A DNA stretch of 64,000 nt. Source: Sulfurimonas sp. hsl 1-7 (GTDB taxonomy: Bacteria > Campylobacterota > Campylobacteria > Campylobacterales > Sulfurimonadaceae). A program made the position numbers and the translations under genes. Location of the stretch: the NCBI RefSeq assembly GCF_030577135.1, contig NZ_JAUIRR010000003.1, positions 62,001-126,000 on the forward strand. The letters run 5' to 3'. The notes beneath the pieces are model-generated. The model made no database searches and was not told the origin of the DNA. It saw only the letters and a program-made list of their open reading frames with translations. The stretch's first letter is position 1, and every line of letters begins with the position of its first letter. Positions 32,909 to 45,981 of this stretch are shown in pieces.

Positions 32909-33136
32909 CTAATCTTTTTTAACAACGATAGTCCAGTCAACTTCGTTGAATTTCAGTGAGTTGTATAACTCCCAACCACACTCTTTTACTAAGTCTGCAC
33001 TTCTTTGTACAGGTGTAAAGTCGCCAATTTCAAAAAGAAAAATAAGTGTCTCACTTGGTTTGTGAGTTTCACCTAAGATCTCTTTCATACGAGGTTCAAA
33101 ATTATCTTTTAAATGTCTTAGATCATATCTTTTCAT
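32909..33136 (-). CDS. Small NuoE-position subunit of epsilonproteobacterial complex I
   Basis: 75 residues, in the place of nuoE between nuoD and the NuoF substitute. It has a single Cys (KECGW), so it cannot carry the N1a [2Fe-2S] cluster of true NuoE. Size, position and the ETLIFLFEIGDFTPVQRSADLV stretch fit the small proteins found at this position in Campylobacter and Helicobacter (Cj1575c / HP1264 as I recall). It probably docks the flavoprotein to the Q module. Coupled to nuoD by TAATG. Confidence 0.8.
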   Translation of the reverse strand: MKRYDLRHLKDNFEPRMKEILGETHKPSETLIFLFEIGDFTPVQRSADLVKECGWELYNSLKFNEVDWTIVVKKD

Positions 33137-34377
33137 TATCTATCTACCTCACCAAATACGATATTTGTTGTACCAATAATAGAAACAACATCCGGAATAT
33201 AGTGACCAGGTAATAGGTCAGTTAAAATTCCTGTATGCCAGAAAGAAGGCGCACGTAGTTTTAATCTGTACGGATACGGTCCACCTTGAGAGTTGATGTA
33301 GTACCCTAGTTCACCTTTTGGTGATTCAGTAGCAACATAAACTTCACCAACCGGCGGTCTCATACCTTGAGTTACAAGTACGAAGTGCTGCATTAAAGAG
33401 TAGTTTTGTGTCATGATATCCAGCTTTGGAGCTGAGATATATTTAGGAGCGTGAGCCATTAACTCAGTTTGTCCCTCTTTAACACATCTCTCATACATCT
33501 CTATTGTTTGATAAAGGATCTTCGCAGATTCTCTCATCTCTTCCATATAGATTCTATAACGCGCGAAGTTGTCACCCTTGTCAGAGAACGGTACATTAAA
33601 TTCTACTTCATCATAAAGTTCATACGGCTCTTCTTTACGGATATCCCATGCTACGCCAGAAGCTCTTAACATTGGACCTGTACAACCCCATGAAAGTGCC
33701 ATATCTGTTGAGATAACACCAACATCTTCCATTCTCATTCTCCAGATACGGTTAGAATCCAGTAGATCTTCGTAATCTTTAATGTTTTGTGGAAGTTTGT
33801 CTAAGAAAGTTCTTAGTTGTGCCAAGAAATCATCTTGGATATCTAAAGGAACACCACCGATACGAATAGCTGCGTGAGTTAAACGTGCACCACAGTATCC
33901 CTCGATAATATCCATTAGGTATTCTCTTTCACGGAATGCAAATAAGAAGATAGTCATCGCACCGATATCAAGAGCAGTAGTTGCTAACCAGAAAAGGTGT
34001 GACATAAGACGGTTAATCTCTAAAAGCATCATTCTAATTACTTTTGCACGACGAGGAACTTCAAGTCCGATCAGTTTTTCAACTGCAAGTGCAAAACCGT
34101 AGTTGTTTGAAGATGAAGCGATATAATCCATACGGTCAGTAGTAGGCATAAACTCGTTATAGATCATATTTTCAGCCATCTTCTCCATACCACGGTGAAG
34201 ATATCCAACATCTGGATGTGCTTTTGTAATTTGCTCTTGTTGAAGGTGAAGCATAAGTCTTAACTGTCCGTGAGCAGACGGGTGCTGTGGACCGAAGTTT
34301 AAGATTAGCTCATTATCTTCTCTGTCAAATGTAATATTTTCAAAAAACGGTGTTAATCTGTTTTTTACTTGTGCCAT
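33136..34377 (-). CDS. nuoD: NADH-quinone oxidoreductase subunit D
   Basis: 413 residues, 49-kDa subunit with the NiFe-hydrogenase-like fold that lines the quinone site. [14 protein letters not shown] has the quinone-loop His pair, and [31 protein letters not shown] and the C-terminal [18 protein letters not shown] are typical. Separate from nuoC, as in non-enterobacterial operons. Confidence 0.97.
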
Positions 34378-34389
34378 ATTTATACCACC

Positions 34390-35196
34390 CTATCTTTGCG
34401 GATCATCAATAACTTTTGATGACTCTTTTGTATATTTTTTGATGAGGAATACTCCACCATCTTCTTGATACTCTTGAACTGTTCTTTCCATATCGTCAGT
34501 GATTTCAGTACCTTTTGGAACTTCAAAACCAAGACGTGCAAAACGTTCTGAATCGTATCTGTCGATTCTTGCAGTATCACGAAGTTCAGGCCCGATAATA
34601 TCGCGTGCTTCTTTTCCGTAGATTTTATCAACTTCATACCAAGCAGCAAACTCATCACCCTCTAACGGGTAAGTTTTACGAAGTGGGAAACCTTGCCAGT
34701 CGTAAGGCATAAGGATACGTTTCATGAATGGGTGACCGTTAGCTTCGATACCGAACATATCGAACATCTCACGCTCAGACCAGTCAGCAGAACGGAAAAG
34801 TTTTTCAACAGAGTCAACAGCTTGCCCCTCTTTGATGAAATACTTGATACGGATACGTTTACGTTTAGTCATAGAAAGCATTTGATAGAAAATCTCGAAA
34901 GTACCGTCTTTTGCTAACCAATCGATCGCACTTAACTCTGAAAGTTGAGTATATTCTAACTCGTCTCTCATAAGTTCAAGTACACCGTAAATATCTTGCG
35001 GCTGAATATAAACAACCATTTGCTCAACTTGGATATACGCATCGCTTACTTCAAACTTCGCTTTGATAGCTGCAAGATCAGCAGCAAACACTGCATCATC
35101 TTCAACTGGAGTTTTAGGAACTTGCGGTGCTACATAATATCTATCTGTATAATAAGCTTTTGCTTGTACATCATCTTTTGGTGTATACGCTCTCAT
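34390..35196 (-). CDS. nuoC: NADH-quinone oxidoreductase subunit C
   Basis: 268 residues, 30-kDa subunit that scaffolds the Q module. The signature SADWSEREMFDMFGIEANGHPFMKRILMPYDWQGFPLRKTYPL spans roughly residues 133-175. The ~45-residue Ala/Pro-rich N-terminal extension (RAYTPKDDVQAKAYYTDRYY) is longer than in many homologues. Its ATG overlaps the nuoB stop by one base. Confidence 0.95.
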   Translation of the reverse strand: MRAYTPKDDVQAKAYYTDRYYVAPQVPKTPVEDDAVFAADLAAIKAKFEVSDAYIQVEQMVVYIQPQDIYGVLELMRDELEYTQLSELSAIDWLAKDGTFEIFYQMLSMTKRKRIRIKYFIKEGQAVDSVEKLFRSADWSEREMFDMFGIEANGHPFMKRILMPYDWQGFPLRKTYPLEGDEFAAWYEVDKIYGKEARDIIGPELRDTARIDRYDSERFARLGFEVPKGTEITDDMERTVQEYQEDGGVFLIKKYTKESSKVIDDPQR

Positions 35197-35705
35197 TACA
35201 TTAACCTTTTAGCTTTTTGTGCTTTACCCGCTTTTTGTGCACGGATCTTTTGTTGTAATAACATTACACCGTACTGAAGTGTTTCAGGACGAGGTGCACA
35301 ACCTGGAAGATAAAGATCAACAGGGATAATTCTGTCACAACCTTGAACAGTTGCGTAAGTATTAAACATACCACCAGTATTTGCACATGAACCCATTGAG
35401 ATAACCCATCTAGGCTCAGTCATTTGGTCATAAAGACGTTTAATAAACTCAGCGTGTTTTTTTGTAAGTGTTCCCGCTACAATCATAACATCAGCCTGAC
35501 GAGGAGATGCACGGAAAATAGTTCCGTAACGGTCAAAGTCAAAACGTGATGCACCCGAAGCCATCATCTCAATACCACAACAAGCAAGACCATAAGTCAA
35601 TGCCCAAATTGAGTTCGAACGACCCCAGTTTACCACTTTGTCGATCGATGTAAGTGCTACCGGCAATCCACCGTCTTGTGTATAATTTACTTTATGTTGT
35701 GCCAT
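35196..35705 (-). CDS. nuoB: NADH-quinone oxidoreductase subunit B
   Basis: 169 residues from ATG 35705, chosen over an in-frame ATG at 35726 because AGGAG lies 7 bases before it and [13 protein letters not shown] aligns with known NuoB starts. Cluster N2 ligands are visible: tandem Cys in [10 protein letters not shown], Cys in [10 protein letters not shown] and Cys in PGCAPRPE. N2 is the last carrier before quinone. Overlaps nuoA by 19 bases. Confidence 0.96.
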
Positions 35706-36076
35706 TCTAGCGCTCCTTTTTTCCATGCATAAACGAAACCTATTGCTAATAATAGGATGAACATAATCATCTCAGCAAATCCAAACCATCCAAGTACTTT
35801 AAAATCTACAGCCCAAGGAAACATAAATACTATCTCTACATCAAATAGTAAAAACAAAAGTGCAAATAGATAAAACTGAGGTGAAACTCTGTTTGGTTGT
35901 TTCGTTACCTCAGGCCCACATTCATAAACCGAAAGTTTAATTTTTTCAGTGTCTTTAGCAGCTAATGCACGACTCGCAAGTCTTGCGATTGTAGTCGTTG
36001 CAATAAAAGCACCAAATGTTATAACAAAAAGTACAAATACCCCAAAATACGGATTTGCAGTACTAATATGCTCCAT
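35687..36076 (-). CDS. nuoA: NADH-quinone oxidoreductase subunit A
   Basis: 129 residues, three membrane helices. The conserved loop [39 protein letters not shown], with the coupling Cys and the acidic helix, is present. It is the first gene of the operon; the promoter must lie in the ~170 bases between it and the terminator of the upstream cluster. Confidence 0.96.
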
Positions 36077-36243: not shown

Positions 36244-36289
36244 TATGAAAAAAAGAAATTTTCAGTGTCACGATTTGCAACACTGAAAA
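36244..36289 (-). terminator. Rho-independent terminator of the FadL-to-DUF1302 cluster
   Basis: On the minus strand, arms TTTTCAGTGT and ACACTGAAAA (plus-strand 36280-36289 and 36259-36268) are perfectly paired around an 11-base loop and followed by TTTCTTTTTTTC. It lies ~50 bases after the DUF1302-like gene and insulates the nuo operon. The rest of 36077-36243 must hold the nuo promoter, but no convincing -10/-35 pair was seen. Confidence 0.85.
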
Positions 36290-36341: not shown

Positions 36342-37631
36342 CTAAAAACTGTATGAAATATCATAAAAAAGCATATCGTTATCACTTATGGCATCAAAAA
36401 AGCTATTTCCTTTAAGGTAGTCCACTACACCTAAAGTAGTTTTGATACTATCTGAAGCATCATATTCGATCCAAGCTCTTTGATATCCACCCCCATCAAA
36501 CGTATCTCCAAATGCACTTACTAAGTAGTTAAGGTGCACCGTTGCATTTTTAAAGTCGGATGTAATTCGAAAAGCTCCTTGATAGTTATCTTTTTTAAAC
36601 GAATTCGTATTTACAAACCGTTTGTTGGCAAGGTCTAGACTCACCGTTGTATCTGCAATTCCGTTATATTCAAAACCTAGCAACATATCAAGTCTGTCAA
36701 ACTTTTCATCTCCCGTTTGCAAAAACTTATAGTTTTGCATATATGCCGCTTCTCCTTTAACAAGCAAGCTTCCATATACATAAGCGATAGCTGCACCGTA
36801 CATATTGATCTTACTTTCAATATTAACATCTGTTCTTGGATAAAACTCGAAATTCGGGTAGATATTTGCATAATAAAAATCTAAATCAAACCCTGTAAAC
36901 TCTCCGGAAATATTTAGAGCATACGTTACATCATTCGGCTTTTTCTGTAAAGGCTGTTTGACAGGTGACGGATTAAAATCTCCACCAAACGGGGGATTTT
37001 TATCTTCGCGCTGTTCAAGTATGATAACCGGTGCAATATCCCAGTTGTCATAATAGTAATCAAACTTTGCCATCGTCGTACTTAGACGAAGGTCTTCAAT
37101 ATCTACCATACCGGGACGACGATTATCTAAAGGATTAAGTACATCAACTACGCGGATAGTATCACTTTTCCCCCACACTATCACCTGACGTCCAAGTTTT
37201 ATATCAAGATCATCAGTAATCGAGCCTTGGATATAGGCATCAAAAAGTTCAACTTCACTTTGCAGAGCATTTAGCTCCTCTTTTGTAAACTCCTCTTCCC
37301 CTTTCATTTTGTAAGAGAGATCGTAAAATCCGTTTCCGTTGATTTTAAATTTAAAGCTCTTCCAAAGATCTCTGTTATACTCAAGGAACAAAGATGTTCT
37401 TAGAGAAGAGAATCTGTCGTGTGGGGCATCATTTTGATAACTGTAGGCAAACTCCTGTTTGAATTTTCCTTCAATGCCGTAATCTGATAAAGAGAATCTA
37501 CTCTCCTCTTTTTGAGGTTGTACTACCATGCTAAGAGGTTCTTCATCAAACCCATCCATAAAAGCATCGGCATCATCTGCAACAGCCAATGTAGTTACCA
37601 GTAGAGATAAAAGAAAAAAACGCCCTAACAA
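36342..37631 (-). CDS. DUF1302-like outer-membrane beta-barrel protein
   Basis: 429 residues from TTG 37631, which follows the previous stop directly and has AAGGA 6-8 bases upstream. Signal peptide MLGRFFLLSLLVTTLAVADD. The barrel has alternating strands and LGRQVIVWGKSDTIRVVDVLNPLDNRRPG, a segment I associate with DUF1302 proteins, which often sit beside RND exporters and LolA-like or DUF1329 proteins. It ends in MLFYDISYSF, a barrel C-terminal strand with terminal Phe. Last gene of the cluster; probably the outer-membrane exit or entry pore for a hydrophobic compound. Confidence 0.7.
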   Translation of the reverse strand: MLGRFFLLSLLVTTLAVADDADAFMDGFDEEPLSMVVQPQKEESRFSLSDYGIEGKFKQEFAYSYQNDAPHDRFSSLRTSLFLEYNRDLWKSFKFKINGNGFYDLSYKMKGEEEFTKEELNALQSEVELFDAYIQGSITDDLDIKLGRQVIVWGKSDTIRVVDVLNPLDNRRPGMVDIEDLRLSTTMAKFDYYYDNWDIAPVIILEQREDKNPPFGGDFNPSPVKQPLQKKPNDVTYALNISGEFTGFDLDFYYANIYPNFEFYPRTDVNIESKINMYGAAIAYVYGSLLVKGEAAYMQNYKFLQTGDEKFDRLDMLLGFEYNGIADTTVSLDLANKRFVNTNSFKKDNYQGAFRITSDFKNATVHLNYLVSAFGDTFDGGGYQRAWIEYDASDSIKTTLGVVDYLKGNSFFDAISDNDMLFYDISYSF

Positions 37632-38414
37632 CTAGAGTCCTTTTTCGAGTCTTCTAGTAGTAAATACATCATCATCGATCGGCTTGTTCACTTTGATATT
37701 CTCAAACTGCAAGATTGTTTTGTGAAGAGTAGCTTTGCCCTGCTTTGTTGTCATTACCATCTCATCAACTACCCATATACCCTCTTGTTTATGCATCTTA
37801 GTCACATCAAGATATTTTCTATCTCCGTTTTTCATAAAACCGATTGAACGAACCACCATATCTATATCTTCTCGCACTAAACCTATAGTTTTTACATAAC
37901 CCGATTCTTCAATCACATCTTCATTCACAGGAAGCGATTCAAGCATAGTTGTGTCATGTCCGCGTACTTGTGTATGTTTCATAATTTTGTATGTGTAATC
38001 ATCTACGCTTCTTTTTGTCATGTCGTAGTATGAGAAATCACTCCCCATAAAACTTGAACTTTTATCGCTTGTCGGAATTCTTTTTACTTTTTTAAGTGCC
38101 GGAAGATAGAGCCACTGATCATCATCTTTGCTTGCATCATCATAATCATACGTTAAAAATGCAGTATCTTTTACATCTGCAGGAGATTTAAAAAACATGA
38201 TTCTGTAGTCATCTTTGCCGAAATCTTTTCCGAATGTTTTGATCTCTCTGATTCTTTGATTGTTATTTTTATCGATAAGTATCATCTTCATATCTTGGAT
38301 GATAGTTTTACCGTCATCTCTGTCATAAACTTTTTGAGCGATATCTCTTGCTTCATTCGCTTGAATGAAACTCCCAAACCCCAATAACGTAACTAAACAT
38401 ATCTTTTTGATCAT
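37632..38414 (-). CDS. Outer-membrane lipoprotein-sorting (LolA-like) periplasmic protein
   Basis: 260 residues from ATG 38414. This start gives a clean signal peptide (MIKKICLVTLLGFGSFIQA) and an ATGA overlap with the RND gene; an in-frame ATG at 38423 has no room for a ribosome-binding site. The mature chain is the LolA/LolB-like half-barrel seen in COG2834-type proteins: DMKMILIDKNNNQRIREIKTFGKD, DQWLYLPALKKVKRIPTSDKSSSFMGSDFSYYDM. Such proteins bind lipid in the periplasm and are often encoded with RND/MMPL exporters. The genomic LolA itself is probably elsewhere. Confidence 0.82.
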   Translation of the reverse strand: MIKKICLVTLLGFGSFIQANEARDIAQKVYDRDDGKTIIQDMKMILIDKNNNQRIREIKTFGKDFGKDDYRIMFFKSPADVKDTAFLTYDYDDASKDDDQWLYLPALKKVKRIPTSDKSSSFMGSDFSYYDMTKRSVDDYTYKIMKHTQVRGHDTTMLESLPVNEDVIEESGYVKTIGLVREDIDMVVRSIGFMKNGDRKYLDVTKMHKQEGIWVVDEMVMTTKQGKATLHKTILQFENIKVNKPIDDDVFTTRRLEKGL

Positions 38415-40795
38415 TTTATCCATCCTCTTTTTGCAATTAGAACCATCAGTGCCGGAGCTAACAATAAGTCGGCAATAAGTGCTAAGATAATAACACTTCC
38501 CGTTAAAAATCCAAAGTTTTGTACACTTTCCATATTTCCAAACATATACGCATAAAATCCAAGTGAAAGTACTATAGTTGTAATCACTAACGCTTTACCC
38601 GTTGTGAAAAAAGTGTTCTCAACCGCTACAATTGCATCACCGCTTCTGAGATAGTAACGCTTGAAGTTGTGCATAAAGTGAATGGTATCATCCACTGCAA
38701 GTCCGATAGCAATCGAGCCGATTAAAAGGGTAAACATATCAAGAGGGATATGGTAGATGTACATTAAACTAAGCCCCACAATTACAGGAGATAAATTTGG
38801 TATCATAGAGATAAGTCCAAGACGCGCATCCCCCATAATAAACATCATAAGAATTGCGATCAGCGTAAAAGCGATAATGTAACTCTCTACCGATGAGCGG
38901 ATTGCCTGTGTAAAAGTATGCACTAAGATAGGGATAATCCCCGTTACCGTAACCTCTTCATCTTTGAATGTCTCTTCAAATCTTGTTTGAACGTGAGCGA
39001 GCATATCTTCACTCTCTATAGAGTCAACCCAAGGCACCTTCACGGTAACTCGTAGTTTTGAAAACTGGGAATCAACAACATCTTCAAGATCGTCACTGCC
39101 GCTATTTTCAAAAAGCAGCAGCTCTTGAGAGAGTAAAGCTTGATCTGATGGGATTGTGTAAAGTGATTCATTGTTTTCGTGAAGCGCTTTATTGCTCTCT
39201 TTTACGATCGTATCGAGTGAGACCACTTTTCCTATATATGTTTTGCCGTCATCATACTCTGCAAGCTCTTTGTTAAGGTTATCTAGCTTTTGGAGTCTCT
39301 CTGGGTTCTGCCAGCCGTTTTGCTCTTTTGTATCAACTACCACTTCAACTGTCAACGAGCCGTTTAAATTGTCGTCGATATAGTGAGTACCAACATAGTT
39401 TGGATCATCTTTTGGAAACCACTCTAAAGGGTAGTGAGAGAGTTTTATATTTGTAGCTAGCGCGATTGAAAGCACTACTAACGATATACTCACAACTACA
39501 ACAGATTTTGGATGGTGTGTCGGAAAGTATGCAAACTTTTTCATTAGATTGTCTAACCAATGGTTCTCTTTAATCTCTTTTGGCTTCATTGGGGTAATCA
39601 TTAAAAGCGCCGGTAAAAGCGTAAGTGTTAAAAACAGCGATATAAGTACACCTAGTGAAGCAAATTTACCCATATCGGAAATAGGTGCAACTTCACTCCC
39701 CGCAAACGATGCGATTCCAACTGCAGTTGTAAGCCCCGTCATAGCAATAGCAAGACCCGAGTGCTCCAGCGTAAAAGCGATGGCACCCTTTTTATCTTTA
39801 CTCGCATTAAACTTGTCAAAAAAGATCGAAAGTACATGCACCGTTGCACCGACACTCACCGCAATTAAAAGTGAAGGAACTATCTGAGTCGGAAGTTTAA
39901 ACGCTACGCCGAAGTATGCCATCGTTCCGACAGTTGTAAGAAGTGATAAGATGATCACGACAAGGGGATAAAACGTTGCACTTACACGTCTGAAAATTAA
40001 AAACAGAAATACTAAAATAATTAAAATCGTCACACGTGTAAACTTCTGCATATCCTCTTTCATCATAGATTTCAGAGCATCCATTACACTCGCACTTCCT
40101 GCGTAGTAGATCTTAAAATCATCATCGGAATATTTATTTACAATCTCTCTTACTTTTCGTACGATCTCGGCATTTTGTGTATCTGTTAAAGGAGTTTTTA
40201 CCACATCTTGTGCAGGGGCTTCATCAAACTCACTAAACATATCGTCTATATTCTCTTTTTCGTCAGAGATAAACGCTTTTGTTTCGATCATAATCGTTGT
40301 GATTTTTCCGTCACGTGATAAAAGCAGATCTTTGTAAAACTCGTTTGCCATGGCAATCGTTTTTATCTTCTGTGCATCTGCTTGTGTTTGAGGAAAGTTT
40401 TCAAGTAAATCTTCAACGATCAGCTGATCAGCTTCACCTCGTGTATTTCTTACATTTACGAGTGAAGTCACCTCATCGAGGTATGGAACATTATCTTCTA
40501 AATCTTTATGAAGCTTTTTGAGTTTTGTTAAAAACTCTACAGAAAAAACTTTATCGTTTTCTATAGCGATTAATATTCTCTCATCCCTACCAAACTGCTC
40601 TTTAAAAGCTTCATATTTGATGAGCATCGGGTCCTCTTCATGTAAAAACCCTTCCGTTGACGTATCCATAGTGATCTTTGGAACATTTGAGATTGGAAAA
40701 GCTATTACCAATAGTGAAAATAACAACACTATAAAAGGGTGTTTTCCTATAAACTCTCCAAATTTTCCAAGCATCTTTTCTAATTTATGATGCAC
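38411..40795 (-). CDS. RND superfamily (MMPL/Patched-like) exporter
   Basis: 794 residues from GTG 40795 with a perfect AAGGAG 6 bases upstream. Twelve membrane helices in two halves (first near residues 16-34, second bundle beginning ~235, third bundle after ~600), each half with a large periplasmic domain. TVGASVHVL-like (here SVGATVHVLSIFFDKF) and IGLAVDDTIHFMHNFKRY carry the Asp/His residues of the proton relay in MMPL/HpnN-type lipid transporters. These move hydrophobic molecules from the inner membrane using the proton gradient. Flanked by a LolA-like carrier and a Crp/Fnr regulator. Confidence 0.88.
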   Translation of the reverse strand: MHHKLEKMLGKFGEFIGKHPFIVLLFSLLVIAFPISNVPKITMDTSTEGFLHEEDPMLIKYEAFKEQFGRDERILIAIENDKVFSVEFLTKLKKLHKDLEDNVPYLDEVTSLVNVRNTRGEADQLIVEDLLENFPQTQADAQKIKTIAMANEFYKDLLLSRDGKITTIMIETKAFISDEKENIDDMFSEFDEAPAQDVVKTPLTDTQNAEIVRKVREIVNKYSDDDFKIYYAGSASVMDALKSMMKEDMQKFTRVTILIILVFLFLIFRRVSATFYPLVVIILSLLTTVGTMAYFGVAFKLPTQIVPSLLIAVSVGATVHVLSIFFDKFNASKDKKGAIAFTLEHSGLAIAMTGLTTAVGIASFAGSEVAPISDMGKFASLGVLISLFLTLTLLPALLMITPMKPKEIKENHWLDNLMKKFAYFPTHHPKSVVVVSISLVVLSIALATNIKLSHYPLEWFPKDDPNYVGTHYIDDNLNGSLTVEVVVDTKEQNGWQNPERLQKLDNLNKELAEYDDGKTYIGKVVSLDTIVKESNKALHENNESLYTIPSDQALLSQELLLFENSGSDDLEDVVDSQFSKLRVTVKVPWVDSIESEDMLAHVQTRFEETFKDEEVTVTGIIPILVHTFTQAIRSSVESYIIAFTLIAILMMFIMGDARLGLISMIPNLSPVIVGLSLMYIYHIPLDMFTLLIGSIAIGLAVDDTIHFMHNFKRYYLRSGDAIVAVENTFFTTGKALVITTIVLSLGFYAYMFGNMESVQNFGFLTGSVIILALIADLLLAPALMVLIAKRGWIK

Positions 40796-40865
40796 TCTTT
40801 TCTCCTTGTCTAATTTAATCTAATGTTTTGATTTTGCAATATCTTACTCAATTACAAAATTTTAA

Positions 40866-41489
40866 TCATTCACCTATGTTAATTCTCTTTTTTAAACGGC
40901 TAAGATGTTGCGGGGTGATCCCAAGTAAAGTTGCAATGTGGTACTGTGGAACTTTTTCTAAAAGGTGTGGTGTCTCATCCATAAACAGTAAAAATCTCTC
41001 ATCGGCACTTTTACACTGACGTTCAATAGTTTGCTTATGGAGATATCTGTATGCAGCTTCAGACATTAAACGTCCAAAACGTTCCCACTTTTTAAAGTTG
41101 TTATATAAAAACTCTACATCTTTGTAAGAGACACAAACAAGTTCTGTATCCTCTAATGCTTCTATGTAAATAGTTGCAGGCTTTTGTTCAAGAAAACTTT
41201 GATAATCAACTACAAAAAGATTGGTCACATGGGAGTTTTGATCATTAAAGAAGATAGTCCATGTAAAGTCTTTACCGTTTTCATCTAAGATGTAAGCCCT
41301 CACCAAACCGCTGTTAATAAAGTAGAGTTCTTTGCAAACGTCCCCTTGGTAGAGGATTGTCTCATTTTTTTTAAACTTTTTTATTGAGAGTTTGGAGGTA
41401 AATATCTTCCACTCTAAAATATTTACAGAGATATATCTTTGAATAAACTCTTTATATTTTGCAAATGAAGCTTCTGATCTTTTATCCAA
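40866..41489 (-). CDS. Crp/Fnr family transcriptional regulator
   Basis: 207 residues from TTG 41489; an in-frame stop (TAG) six codons upstream excludes a longer form, and GGGG sits in ribosome-binding position. Residues ~30-125 are a cyclic-nucleotide-binding beta-roll (ETILYQGDVCKELYFINSGLVRAY). The C-terminal winged helix has YHIATLLGITPQHLSRLKKR. It lacks the N-terminal Fe-S cysteines of FNR and a clear cAMP-binding RxS motif, so its ligand is unknown. It sits inside the FadL-RND cluster and probably controls it. A 20-base palindrome precedes it. Confidence 0.85.
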   Translation of the reverse strand: MDKRSEASFAKYKEFIQRYISVNILEWKIFTSKLSIKKFKKNETILYQGDVCKELYFINSGLVRAYILDENGKDFTWTIFFNDQNSHVTNLFVVDYQSFLEQKPATIYIEALEDTELVCVSYKDVEFLYNNFKKWERFGRLMSEAAYRYLHKQTIERQCKSADERFLLFMDETPHLLEKVPQYHIATLLGITPQHLSRLKKRINIGE

Positions 41490-41499
41490 ACAGCACCCC

Positions 41500-41514
41500 G
41501 TATCCTAACGATAC
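41500..41514 (-). repeat. Short hairpin in the leader of the Crp/Fnr gene
   Basis: GTATC and GATAC arms around a 5-base loop lie 11 bases before the TTG start. The short stem could affect initiation or be fortuitous. Confidence 0.3.
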
Positions 41515-41543
41515 AAAAGTTTATCTAAAAAAAACAAATACAT

Positions 41544-41563
41544 CAATATATGTTGATATATTG
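41544..41563. repeat. 20-base perfect inverted repeat upstream of the Crp/Fnr gene
   Basis: CAATATAT-GTTG-ATATATTG is a perfect 8-4-8 palindrome that abuts the stop codon of the AAA+ gene and lies 55 bases before the Crp/Fnr start. It contains the nested ATCAA-N6-TTGAT. Spacing and symmetry suit a dimeric regulator such as the adjacent Crp/Fnr protein; an AT-only terminator hairpin is the alternative. Confidence 0.45.
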
Positions 41564-43300
41564 TTACTTATTTAAAAACCCCATAGATTTTTCGTTATCA
41601 AAACTACCGCTTTTTTCACGCTCTATCTCAGTGATAAAATCATGCATTAAAAAGACAGGTTCATCTTTTACTGCAACTTTATACGCTGTATTTTTAATGA
41701 TAAGGTTAATCTGTCCGCCCGTTAACGAATACTCTGCAAGTTTTGTTTTATCAAAATCCTCTTCATACGGTGCTTCTGCCGGCAGCATCTTCTCCCATAA
41801 CTCAATACGTTGTTCAAAGTCAGGCTTTTTAAACTCGATCTTGTAGTTAAATCTTCTTGAGAATGCCACATCTATATTTTCGAGTAAGTTTGTAGTTGCG
41901 ATTAGCATCCCTCTAAAGTTTTCAATCTGCTCTAAAAAGATATTTTGCATCTGATTATGCATCTGATCAGAACCTGTTATGTTTCCGCTGCTACGCGCTC
42001 CTAAAAACTGGTCCGCTTCATTTAAAAGTAAGATAGGTTCTGTTTTTGTTTTTTCAGTAAGCTCATAAAAAGTATCGAAAATTTTACGTACATTTTTTTC
42101 ACTTTCACCCACATACATAGAGAGGATCTTTGAACAATCAAAAGCAAGTACTTGTCTCTTTAACGACTTTGCCAAAGAGTATGCCGTCATAGTTTTTCCG
42201 GTCCCTGCCGCTCCATAGAAAATTATACGTGCATCTATCCCTGACTTTTTATTTTTAATACCCCATTTGACTAAACGGGCTACCACCTCTTTGTCAACCT
42301 GTTTCATCAGATTTTCTAGAGTTTCTCTTGTCTTTATATTTAAAACAACATCCTCTAGCGATGTATCCGGTTCAACAAGCTCAAAAATATCTTGTTCTTC
42401 GATCAAAGCATTGAGCTTCAAACGAGTTACTTTTTTTGTTTTTTGAGGATGGATGATACTTTGAAGTACCTCATCAACAATGTAAAATGCACGTGAAATA
42501 CCACCAAAAGGATTGAGCATCTCTTCATAATCAATGATGTTGTTCTCAATCAAGTTTGAACCGTCTTCTAAAAGTGAACGGTTTTTAATACGCTCATACT
42601 CATCTAAAGAGATAAGATCAATAAGTGTATTCATCTCACGAAGCGAAATATCTGTTGAGCTGTACTCTTCACGTAACAGGGCAATAAAGATCACCTGCTC
42701 ATAGTTGTTCATCTTCTTTTGTTTAAAAAAGCGGTCAAGTACAAGTTCCTCATCTGTTTGTGAAACTCTCTCCTCTATCCTTTTCTCTAAAAGCTGCAGT
42801 TTGTTTTGAAGTCTGTCAATCCCTACAGAGTGTTCGTGCACATTTTGACGAATCACACTCATCTTTTGATAGAGCTCGATTCTAAAAAACTGATCTTGGA
42901 GATACTCAAGATGATCGGCATACGGTTTTACTTCCGGAAGATCAAGATCAAGTGAGCCGTCTTGTAGCAGTTTAAAAAATGAAGATGTAAGACCCACTGC
43001 ACCGTTTAACAACTCTAACGGTGTCACGTCTGCAATCTTGATCGGAGTAAAACTTTGCTGGTGCAGCCATCCTAGTTCCAGTAAGTTTTTGACAGACTGT
43101 AAGTTGTCCAAATATTCATAGTTTGTATGTGTGTAAAGATCTTGTAAAAGTTGAAAAACCAAGACGTCGTCTTGCCCTTCAACATATTTTTTTACCACGT
43201 AACGAAGCATTTTTGCTTCCTCTACACTACATTTGAGATGTATATATATCCCACTCTTTTCGACATCTTGTGTGTTTAAAAAGTCTGCTAGTATTTTCAA
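41564..43300 (-). CDS. AAA+ ATPase with long N-terminal helical domain
   Basis: 578 residues from TTG 43300 (AAGGA upstream). The first ~330 residues are mostly helical with a predicted coiled coil (QNKLQLLEKRIEERVSQ) and no known domain. The AAA+ module shows Walker A GAAGTGKT (~363-372), Walker B LLLNEADQF (~420) with Asn in place of the first Asp, and the second region of homology ending NIDVAFSRRFNYKIEF with Arg fingers. It has no protease domain and no membrane segment. It starts 8 bases after the FadL gene, so it is probably a remodelling ATPase of this envelope cluster. Confidence 0.75.
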   Translation of the reverse strand: MKILADFLNTQDVEKSGIYIHLKCSVEEAKMLRYVVKKYVEGQDDVLVFQLLQDLYTHTNYEYLDNLQSVKNLLELGWLHQQSFTPIKIADVTPLELLNGAVGLTSSFFKLLQDGSLDLDLPEVKPYADHLEYLQDQFFRIELYQKMSVIRQNVHEHSVGIDRLQNKLQLLEKRIEERVSQTDEELVLDRFFKQKKMNNYEQVIFIALLREEYSSTDISLREMNTLIDLISLDEYERIKNRSLLEDGSNLIENNIIDYEEMLNPFGGISRAFYIVDEVLQSIIHPQKTKKVTRLKLNALIEEQDIFELVEPDTSLEDVVLNIKTRETLENLMKQVDKEVVARLVKWGIKNKKSGIDARIIFYGAAGTGKTMTAYSLAKSLKRQVLAFDCSKILSMYVGESEKNVRKIFDTFYELTEKTKTEPILLLNEADQFLGARSSGNITGSDQMHNQMQNIFLEQIENFRGMLIATTNLLENIDVAFSRRFNYKIEFKKPDFEQRIELWEKMLPAEAPYEEDFDKTKLAEYSLTGGQINLIIKNTAYKVAVKDEPVFLMHDFITEIEREKSGSFDNEKSMGFLNK

Positions 43301-43308
43301 AAATATCC

Positions 43309-44487
43309 TTAAAATTTATATCCCAGTCCTGCTGAGATAAGTATAACATTTCCTTCGGTAAATTCACCGTCAAGGTCATCATTTTGCACTGTTCTGTTTT
43401 TATGCATAGAGTATAGTGCAGAAACTCCAAAATCAAAAGTTTCATTTATTCTATATCTTCCCCCTAAGGCTACTGATGTAGTATCTGTATCGGGAAGTTC
43501 AAAACCTAATGTTTTTTCAGGAGCCGGTGTCTGGTCTATTACTAAACCTGCCATTATAGTCAAATCAGTTAACTCTTGAGTAACACCTACACGAAAAGTA
43601 TTTGTATCTTTCCAATCTTTCTCTATCGAATCTCCAAAGACAACATTAGCCGTAGGATCTTCAAAACTAAAGTCTAAAGAGTTGTATGCAGACCAGAAAG
43701 TTTTTTCATATACAACCTCAATTGTTGTAGCACTCGGCAATGTATATGCAGCTGCGATACTAAAAGCTGCCGGCAGCGGTACACTCACATCTACACCTCC
43801 GTTATTGACAGTAAGAATTCTTGTCGTATTTCCGTTCACATTAAGGTTTATGTTTGAGCGATACGTTACACCCAATTCTAAATCTGATGTAGGCTGATAC
43901 GCCAATGCAAGATTATATCCATAATCTGTACTATCACCTTCCATGTCATAATACGCGTTATTCACTACACCTTTTGTATCTATAACTCTAAAACCGGCGG
44001 CAAATCCCAACTTGTCAGTTACTTCAAATGCTACTGTCGGATTTATTTCTACAATCTCCAATGTAAACTCTTCGGCAAAATTCTTTGCAGGAGCGCTCTG
44101 CCATCTTTTTGAGAGTCCGCCGGGGACTACAACACTTACACCGATTCTTGCTCCGTTATCTCCAAGTTTTGGAGATACATAATGCAATGAAGGTATTAAA
44201 AAATTCTCTTTTGTAGATTCTAAACTATATGGTCCAGTGCCACTTACAGTACCATCATACTTCACTTTATCAAGTCCGATATACATAAGGTTGACTTCAA
44301 GATTATTTGTATCTTTCATAAAGACCATCTTTGCCGGATTGTAATATGAAGCATCTGCATTCTCATGATTGTGAGCTATATTTGCAGCTCCTAATGCTAC
44401 TGCATTTGAAGAAGTCTCAGGTATTTTATACCCACCTGCCATAAGTGCCGTTGCTGTAATAATTAACAATAATCCCACTTTTTTCAT
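43309..44487 (-). CDS. FadL/OmpP1/TodX family outer-membrane transporter
   Basis: 392 residues with signal peptide MKKVGLLLIITATALMAGG. The mature N-terminus follows the FadL hatch pattern: ETSSNAVALGAANIAHNHENADASYYNPAKMVFM. The C-terminus ends NVILISAGLGYKF, a barrel strand with terminal Phe. FadL proteins let hydrophobic molecules (long-chain fatty acids, hydrocarbons) diffuse laterally into the outer membrane. It heads the run FadL - AAA+ - Crp/Fnr - RND - LolA-like - DUF1302-like and lies 53 bases after nfo. Confidence 0.9.
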   Translation of the reverse strand: MKKVGLLLIITATALMAGGYKIPETSSNAVALGAANIAHNHENADASYYNPAKMVFMKDTNNLEVNLMYIGLDKVKYDGTVSGTGPYSLESTKENFLIPSLHYVSPKLGDNGARIGVSVVVPGGLSKRWQSAPAKNFAEEFTLEIVEINPTVAFEVTDKLGFAAGFRVIDTKGVVNNAYYDMEGDSTDYGYNLALAYQPTSDLELGVTYRSNINLNVNGNTTRILTVNNGGVDVSVPLPAAFSIAAAYTLPSATTIEVVYEKTFWSAYNSLDFSFEDPTANVVFGDSIEKDWKDTNTFRVGVTQELTDLTIMAGLVIDQTPAPEKTLGFELPDTDTTSVALGGRYRINETFDFGVSALYSMHKNRTVQNDDLDGEFTEGNVILISAGLGYKF

Positions 44488-44540: not shown

Positions 44541-45425
44541 TTAATCAATAAAAGAGTATAAAAGTGCGATCTCATCTTTCCAGATAGATTCATCAATCGT
44601 TTCAAGAACAAGTGGAATGTCATCCATTCTCTCATCATTCATGATAAATCTAAATGCATCAAGACCTATCTCCCCTTGACCTAAAGAGTGGTGTCTGTCA
44701 ACACGGCTTCCAAGCGGCGGCTTCGAATCGTTAATGTGCATACCGCTTAAATATTCTCTTCCTACAATTTTGTCAAAATCACCCCAAGTTTTATCGTACG
44801 CTTCGCGAGTTCTGATGTCATACCCTGCTGTGAACATATGACAAGTGTCAATACAAACACCCACACGGCTCTTATCTTCAACTTTCTCGATAATACGCGC
44901 TAGATGCTCAAACTTATACCCCAGGTTTGTCCCCTGTCCGGCCGTGTTTTCGATCACCGCTTTTACACCGCTTGTTTTGTCAAGTGCGATGTTGATAGAT
45001 TCTGCGATCACATCCAGACACTCATTTTCCACTTTTTCTACATACTCTGGGTCTTTTTTCTCTTTAGCAGAGAGTTTTACGAGATGGCTTCCCGGGTGAA
45101 AGTTTAATCTATCAAGTCCTAAAATCTCACAACGCTGTAATTCGTCTATGAAAGCTGTACGACTTTTTTGGAGTTTTTCCTCTTCGGGATGTCCGAGATT
45201 AATCAGGTATGAATCGTGAGGCAATATATGTTTTGGCTGGATTCCAGATGCTTCTAAAGTTTTAAACCAAGTATCTAACGTCTTAGCATCAAAAGGTTTA
45301 GCATCCCATCTTTTTTGATTTTTTGTAAAAAGTGCAAATGCTTTTGCCCCTATCTCCTGTGCATTTGTGATTGCATTAAAAACTCCGCCGCTTGCACTCG
45401 TATGTGCCCCTACAAATTTCGCCAT
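44541..45425 (-). CDS. nfo: Endonuclease IV (AP endonuclease Nfo)
   Basis: 294 residues. A TIM-barrel trinuclear-zinc enzyme that cuts DNA 5' of abasic sites. Metal ligands appear in [56 protein letters not shown] and the final VLET. Its ATG overlaps the stop of the lipoprotein gene by one base. Confidence 0.96.
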
Positions 45426-45892
45426 TAGTTTACATCCTTTATCTTTATAAATATTTTGTTTTTTCTGTCTTTGAAATAGATTTCATCTAACTCCACTTTA
45501 TATACAATATCTACACCGCTGCTTTGAATAATTTGCACAAATCCAATATCTGTTTTAATCAAATTTTTTTTATCAAAAATCGGCTCGCCTAAAAAAACAT
45601 TTTTAAGGAGATCATCCGGGTATGCCGATGAGAGATACTCCTCATTAAAAGAGGACTTTCTCATACACCCTTCCCCGTCGATACATATCATACCGTCAAT
45701 AGAGATCTTTTTAAACGCTTTACCCACAACGTAGAGATCGATCTCCACGCTCTCTTTTCCCTGACCTATATACCCGAGATCGGAAAAGCGGATATTTTTC
45801 GTTTTAAAAACAACCATTTTAGAACTTTTTTCAAGTTGTTTAACACTACAGGCACTGAAAAAGAGAACTAAAAAGATAAGTAGATATTTCAT
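45425..45892 (-). CDS. Small putative lipoprotein, function unknown
   Basis: 155 residues from ATG 45892, preferred over an in-frame TTG at 45910 because GGAAG lies ~11 bases before the ATG and the signal peptide then begins [15 protein letters not shown], with the lipidated Cys at ~15. The mature part is ~140 residues, beta-rich, with two Cys in [16 protein letters not shown], perhaps a disulfide. No family recognised. Coupled to nfo by TAATG. Confidence 0.65.
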
Positions 45893-45981
45893 AAAATAGT
45901 GTACTTCCAAAGAAATTTTTCCAAATTATAGTAAAATTTTTGCAAATTGACATAAAACAAAAAGTTACCCTTTTTTTTTCA

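Follow-up and report, generated by a model that had tools for sequence, protein, structure and literature searches.

Gene content of the locus

We examined a 64,000-nucleotide stretch of a contig of Sulfurimonas sp. hsl 1-7 (the window), in which six co-directional open reading frames lie on the minus strand between nfo and nuoA (Table 1). The coordinates, orientation and, in outline, family assignments of a sequence-only reading were all confirmed, as were the short gaps between genes, with 53 nt between nfo and fadL, 8 nt between fadL and the AAA ATPase gene, 74 nt between the latter and crp, and 70 nt between crp and the RND gene. By ORF coordinates, the RND and LolA-like genes overlap by 13 nt, and the LolA-like and DUF1302 genes are separated by 0 nt. 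This spacing hints at modules, since the last three genes abut or overlap, FadL and the AAA ATPase are close together, and about 70 nt lie on either side of crp. No tRNA or Rfam match was found in the window. For comparison, we used 60 relatives, 349 Campylobacterales genomes and 80 named loci (L numbers; G and f denote genomes and families), with genome-wide counts derived from searches.

Table 1. Features of the locus, with coordinates relative to the window.
Feature	Coordinates	Strand	Evidence
nuoABCD, downstream flank of the insertion slot	33136..36076	-	synteny
Strong intrinsic terminator, ancestral AAA-nuoA intergenic element	36259..36289	-	folding; equivalents in cassette-free genomes
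DUF1302 outer-membrane beta-barrel, cassette, predicted exit/insertion part	36342..37631	-	PF06980 89.8 bits, barrel model
LolA-like periplasmic carrier, cassette	37632..38423	-	PF17131 169.4 bits, DUF1329 40.4 bits
Putative HAE3-type RND (MMPL) inner-membrane transporter, cassette	38411..40795	-	PF03176 139.7 bits
Putative Crp/Fnr-family regulator, accessory part of the cassette	40866..41489	-	PF00027 49 bits
AAA-Crp junction, AT-rich hairpin and U8, possible end of a FadL-AAA transcript	41495..41575	-	folding
Classical AAA ATPase, conserved locus, outside the cassette	41564..43300	-	PF00004 92.7 bits, PF22977 36.1 bits
FadL/TodX-family outer-membrane hydrophobe channel, conserved locus, outside the cassette	43309..44487	-	PF03349 (Toluene_X) 155.7 bits
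nfo and HP0838-family lipoprotein, flanking the conserved locus upstream	44541..45910	-	profile match, synteny

The presence of two outer-membrane barrels, also proposed from the sequence, was upheld for FadL by its Toluene_X match, which exceeded the gathering score of 29.7, and for the DUF1302 protein by a predicted beta-barrel of about 18 strands (pLDDT 85, pTM 0.80). The nearest folds to the latter model were OmpF-like porins, Occ channels and the alginate exporter AlgE; the protein ends in Phe and is the only DUF1302 protein in the genome. The carrier matched LolA_like and also DUF1329 (cut-off 23.1), with 9tp6, 4z48 and 3bk5 as solved relatives. For the RND protein, the best NCBIfam match was TIGR00921 (HAE3) at 212.8 bits, well under the cut-off of 351.9, and an invariant Asp pair was present at residues 702-703 in the TM10 region. 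In the Crp protein the cNMP_binding match was over its cut-off, while HTH_Crp_2, at 14.9 bits, was under its cut-off of 27.

The catalytic core of the AAA ATPase is related to Vps4, FtsH and p97 in a predicted model (mean pLDDT 77, pTM 0.46) whose domain arrangement is uncertain. In fold and motifs the catalytic domain resembles those of classical AAA ATPases (the Vps4/CdvC, p97 and FtsH cores), but the protein has a different N-domain, and NEAD replaces the usual DE in Walker B. The NEAD motif is conserved in an order-wide Campylobacterales alignment. The N-domain had been described as unknown; because residues 122-260 partially match a winged-helix-variant family (PF22977, cut-off 27), it is not wholly so, although no solved structure related to this N-domain was recognised. 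The anti-phage ATPase IetA was the best PADLOC/NCBIfam family for the protein, but its score of 109.2 bits against a cut-off of 510 led us to reject this assignment, and no IetS partner was seen beside the gene.

FadL and the AAA ATPase in Campylobacterales

Comparison of gene order indicates that FadL and the AAA ATPase are a separate, conserved pair from an old Campylobacterales locus rather than part of the downstream cassette. The order at this locus is HP0838 lipoprotein–nfo–[lipase]–FadL–[FadD]–AAA–nuoABCD, where bracketed genes are sometimes present. Four genus-mates (L050, L051, L052 and L055) have HP0838 lipoprotein–nfo–FadL–AAA–nuoABCD without the other four genes of the window. The same cassette-free order is found in L056 except in the lipoprotein's place, L054 is cassette-free and also without FadL, and cassette-free loci occur in other families as well (L061, L062 and L200). 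In other genera and families, FadD, identified by Pfam, lies between FadL and the AAA ATPase (L199-L202, L205, L207, L060, L062 and L064). Mechanical ORF calls gave a 4-nt overlap of FadD and AAA in L205 and L207.

The distance between FadL and the AAA gene was 11-17 nt in the FadL-bearing genus-mates compared and in most family f1 genomes. In f20 and most of f4 it was approximately 1.6-1.8 kb, which leaves room for FadD, and in most of f6 approximately 7-12 kb; in f18 the two genes are unlinked. Of the 349 Campylobacterales genomes, 307 have the AAA gene, whether or not they carry the cassette, and 166 have FadL. The Sulfurimonas FadL resembles FadL/TodX channels in its Toluene_X match and has solved FadL relatives (1t16 and 3dwn), but it has no adjoining FadD and is paired with the AAA ATPase instead. 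In Sulfurimonas this pair is a remnant of the old locus; FadL would pass long-chain fatty acids or similar hydrophobes across the outer membrane and the AAA ATPase would be a cytosolic housekeeping enzyme of protein remodelling.

Insertion and origin of the putative exporter cassette

Window-type RND proteins, defined as those with about 60% identity or more, were found in 11 of the 349 genomes. The cassette occupies the slot between AAA and nuoA in the window genome, in G031, in G183 and in a symbiont MAG (L089). The order in G183 (L191) is nfo-AAA-Crp-RND-LolA-DUF1302-nuoA, without FadL, and that in the symbiont MAG is nfo-AAA-RND-LolA-DUF1302-nuoA, without FadL or Crp. These four carriers form one clade in both the AAA tree (99/97) and the RND tree (support 95), consistent with one insertion followed by loss or gain of Crp. 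From gene order and the two trees, we conclude that the AAA-nuoA slot received Crp–RND–LolA-like–DUF1302 in a single event, in the common ancestor of these four Sulfurimonas genomes.

In the RND tree, the slot carriers join family f7 (support 100), away from the approximately 46%-identical RNDs of their genus-mates, and other Sulfurimonas RNDs form separate clades. Because the RND groups with the genes of another family, we conclude that the cassette was acquired horizontally. In the f7 genome G042, the RND is 72% identical to that of the window and the AAA ATPase only 56%, which points to horizontal transfer between these lineages. That genome has the order Crp–RND–LolA–DUF1302, and its AAA–nuo genes are on another contig (L069 and L070). 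By tblastn of all loci, Crp was present in the window, G031 and G183, and the G042 Crp was 42% identical; tblastn and frame translation showed the latter gene to be intact, co-directional and upstream of the triad. Taken together, these sequence comparisons establish a modular structure, an insertion, a horizontal origin and co-inheritance of the triad.

An OlsF-like acyltransferase gene occupies the same AAA-nuoA slot in three other Sulfurimonas genomes (L053, L057 and L058); this slot therefore takes insertions repeatedly.

Terminators and possible transcript boundaries

The strong terminator noted with the six genes (13-bp stem; -15.4 kcal/mol, z -4.4) is real, but it is part of the gap that separated AAA from nuoA ancestrally. 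The corresponding gaps of cassette-free L050 and L056 fold in a similar way, while that of L054 does not; with equivalents in cassette-free genomes, the terminator is no evidence for a six-gene transcript. The gap between AAA and Crp contains an AT-rich hairpin (-8.3 kcal/mol, z -2.5) and then a U8 tract, and a similar dyad lies 3' of AAA at the AAA-RND junction in L089. In a consensus promoter scan, promoter-like sites were no commoner than in shuffled sequences. The AAA-Crp gap in G183 is only 19 nt, and read-through from AAA into the cassette, or co-transcription, is thus possible there.

The triad at other loci

RND–LolA–DUF1302 recurs, mostly in the same order, in Campylobacterota, Desulfobacterota and Proteobacteria, and no AAA gene of the window kind was seen beside the many triads at other loci. 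At the threshold used, the RND type is present in 23 of the 349 Campylobacterales genomes; since most of those sampled are without it, the triad is accessory. FadL occurs in 7 of the 11 genomes with a window-type RND and in 159 of the other 338 (p = 0.36), which is not above chance.

We scanned 40 selected neighbouring proteins with Pfam, and the lipid-related contexts that emerged should therefore be read as examples rather than as a measured enrichment. In Sulfurovum, the triad adjoins lipase-FadL-[FadD] in L092, L099 and L100, with lipase, FadL and FadD identified by Pfam in L092. Insertion beside FadL there as well is a weak hint of a lipid hub, and a functional link to fatty-acid uptake is conceivable. 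In six Desulfobacterota loci (L108, L106, L107, L121, L129 and L164), a TetR gene stands upstream of the triad, where the window has Crp; the neighbour scanned at L142 had no match, and that at L109 is a nitroreductase.

Further contexts that point to lipids were seen around related genes. In L103 (5265-13995), two tandem RND genes and LolA are immediately preceded by genes for PqiA, an MlaD-domain protein and an ABC_trans_aux lipoprotein, and in an Arcobacteraceae MAG a gene for a VTT/DedA-type protein (L104:12437-12859) separates RND from LolA. A second set, with the order LolA–barrel–RND–OlsF-like, is present in the window genome at 5804-12632 of L086 (G000:C3:300000-318000). By hhalign, its barrel is distantly related to DUF1302 (probability 96%, E 4e-9), and its OlsF-like acyltransferase/GNAT protein also has a GGDEF domain. 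L086 is a candidate cluster for aminolipid synthesis and export; L088 of G011 is arranged similarly.

Discussion

The sequence-only reading joined all six genes into one undescribed envelope system. Synteny, trees and co-occurrence instead split them into two modules and speak against a single six-gene operon: the six are not found together elsewhere as a set, but each module is. We consider it probable (about 0.68) that two modules lie side by side, an old FadL-AAA pair and a horizontally acquired exporter cassette for hydrophobes. Hydrophobe transport, as originally proposed, is well supported as an inference for the RND-LolA-DUF1302 unit, which is found repeatedly and resembles a characterised exporter; it is not supported for the six genes as one system.

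The closest characterised relative of the triad is AmeABCD, which exports apolar monoterpenes in Castellaniella defragrans (PMC6394551). As in the window, genes for an RND, a DUF1302 outer-membrane protein and a periplasmic protein of the LolA superfamily stand together; the RND of AmeABCD is of the HAE3 type, to which the window protein may also belong, and the substrates of AmeABCD are hydrophobic; deletion lowered monoterpene tolerance and raised Nile Red accumulation (PMC6394551). The likeness is one of gene and domain make-up, and hydrophobe efflux by the triad is a prediction. AmeABCD differs in having an additional periplasmic protein, AmeC (COG4447), no counterpart of which is encoded in the window cassette, and a longer DUF1329 carrier, AmeB (451 aa compared to 263 aa); it lies in a terpene-degradation island (PMC6394551), whereas the window cassette includes a Crp gene and is flanked by AAA and nuoA. 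TOL_3187/TOL_3188 of Thalassolituus oleivorans likewise combine MMPL and LolA-like domains with an adjoining predicted porin, but a single protein contains both the RND and the LolA-like domain, and the porin has no recognised conserved domain (PMC6304351). The hopanoid transporter HpnN is an HAE3-type RND that acts on a membrane lipid, but it works without dedicated periplasmic and outer-membrane partners (PMC6394551), and the window RND scored 131 bits against TIGR03480, with a cut-off of 752. Titles and abstracts of the open-licence literature yielded no relevant paper that links Sulfurimonas with FadL or with an RND set of this type, which is weak evidence.

We infer the substrate class, direction and regulation of the cassette. 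The proton-driven RND pump would lift a lipid-like or hydrophobic molecule out of the inner membrane, the LolA-like protein would ferry it across the periplasm, and the DUF1302 barrel would insert it into the outer membrane or release it from there, with Crp switching the cassette.

An environmental hydrophobe such as a hydrocarbon could instead be the substrate, with FadL as its entry route and the triad as a tolerance pump or uptake aid, as has been proposed for monoterpenes and alkanes. The AmeABCD deletion phenotype favours such a role, as does the response of Thalassolituus to C28 alkane, on which the MMPL-LolA protein and neighbouring porin are raised and a FadL-type protein is also implicated (PMC6304351); a DUF1329/YCF48/MMPL cluster is also highly expressed in a benzene degrader (PMC13101534). 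The Thalassolituus set is linked to hydrocarbon uptake, opposite to the export direction that we propose (PMC6304351). We nevertheless regard an environmental substrate as unlikely, as the Campylobacterota contexts consist of membrane-lipid genes and no hydrocarbon-degradation gene was recognised in the part of the window examined. That the triad sorts outer-membrane lipoproteins or proteins, as membership of its carrier in the LolA superfamily could suggest, is extremely improbable given its accessory distribution and the lipid-related identity of the neighbour genes that were identified.

A single regulated two-membrane system, with FadL importing a hydrophobe that leaves again through the triad, unchanged or as a product, and with the AAA ATPase serving to assemble or recycle the machinery, would fit the co-directional genes and short gaps, the Sulfurovum loci and the 19-nt junction in G183. 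We consider it very unlikely. FadL is missing from two of the four slot carriers and its co-occurrence with the triad is at chance, nearly all genomes with the AAA gene are without the triad, no such AAA gene adjoins the triads at other loci, and a hairpin and U-tract separate AAA from Crp. Distinctly unlikely, too, is that nfo-FadL-FadD-AAA-nuo is a lipid-handling hub, in which envelope remodelling is tied to fatty-acid uptake by the AAA ATPase, and into which lipid exporters and synthases (the triad and OlsF-like acyltransferases) have been repeatedly recruited; the Sulfurovum insertions hint at it weakly. If such a hub did exist, fatty-acid uptake, lipid synthesis and export would be functionally joined.

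Separating the two modules corrects an attractive but misleading operon reading. It leaves an uncharacterised AAA ATPase that most Campylobacterales keep, often near FadL/FadD and complex I, and it sets apart, as a widespread unit that lacks AmeC, the RND-LolA-like-DUF1302 triad, which is a good candidate for an accessory route of lipid or hydrophobe export to the outer membrane.
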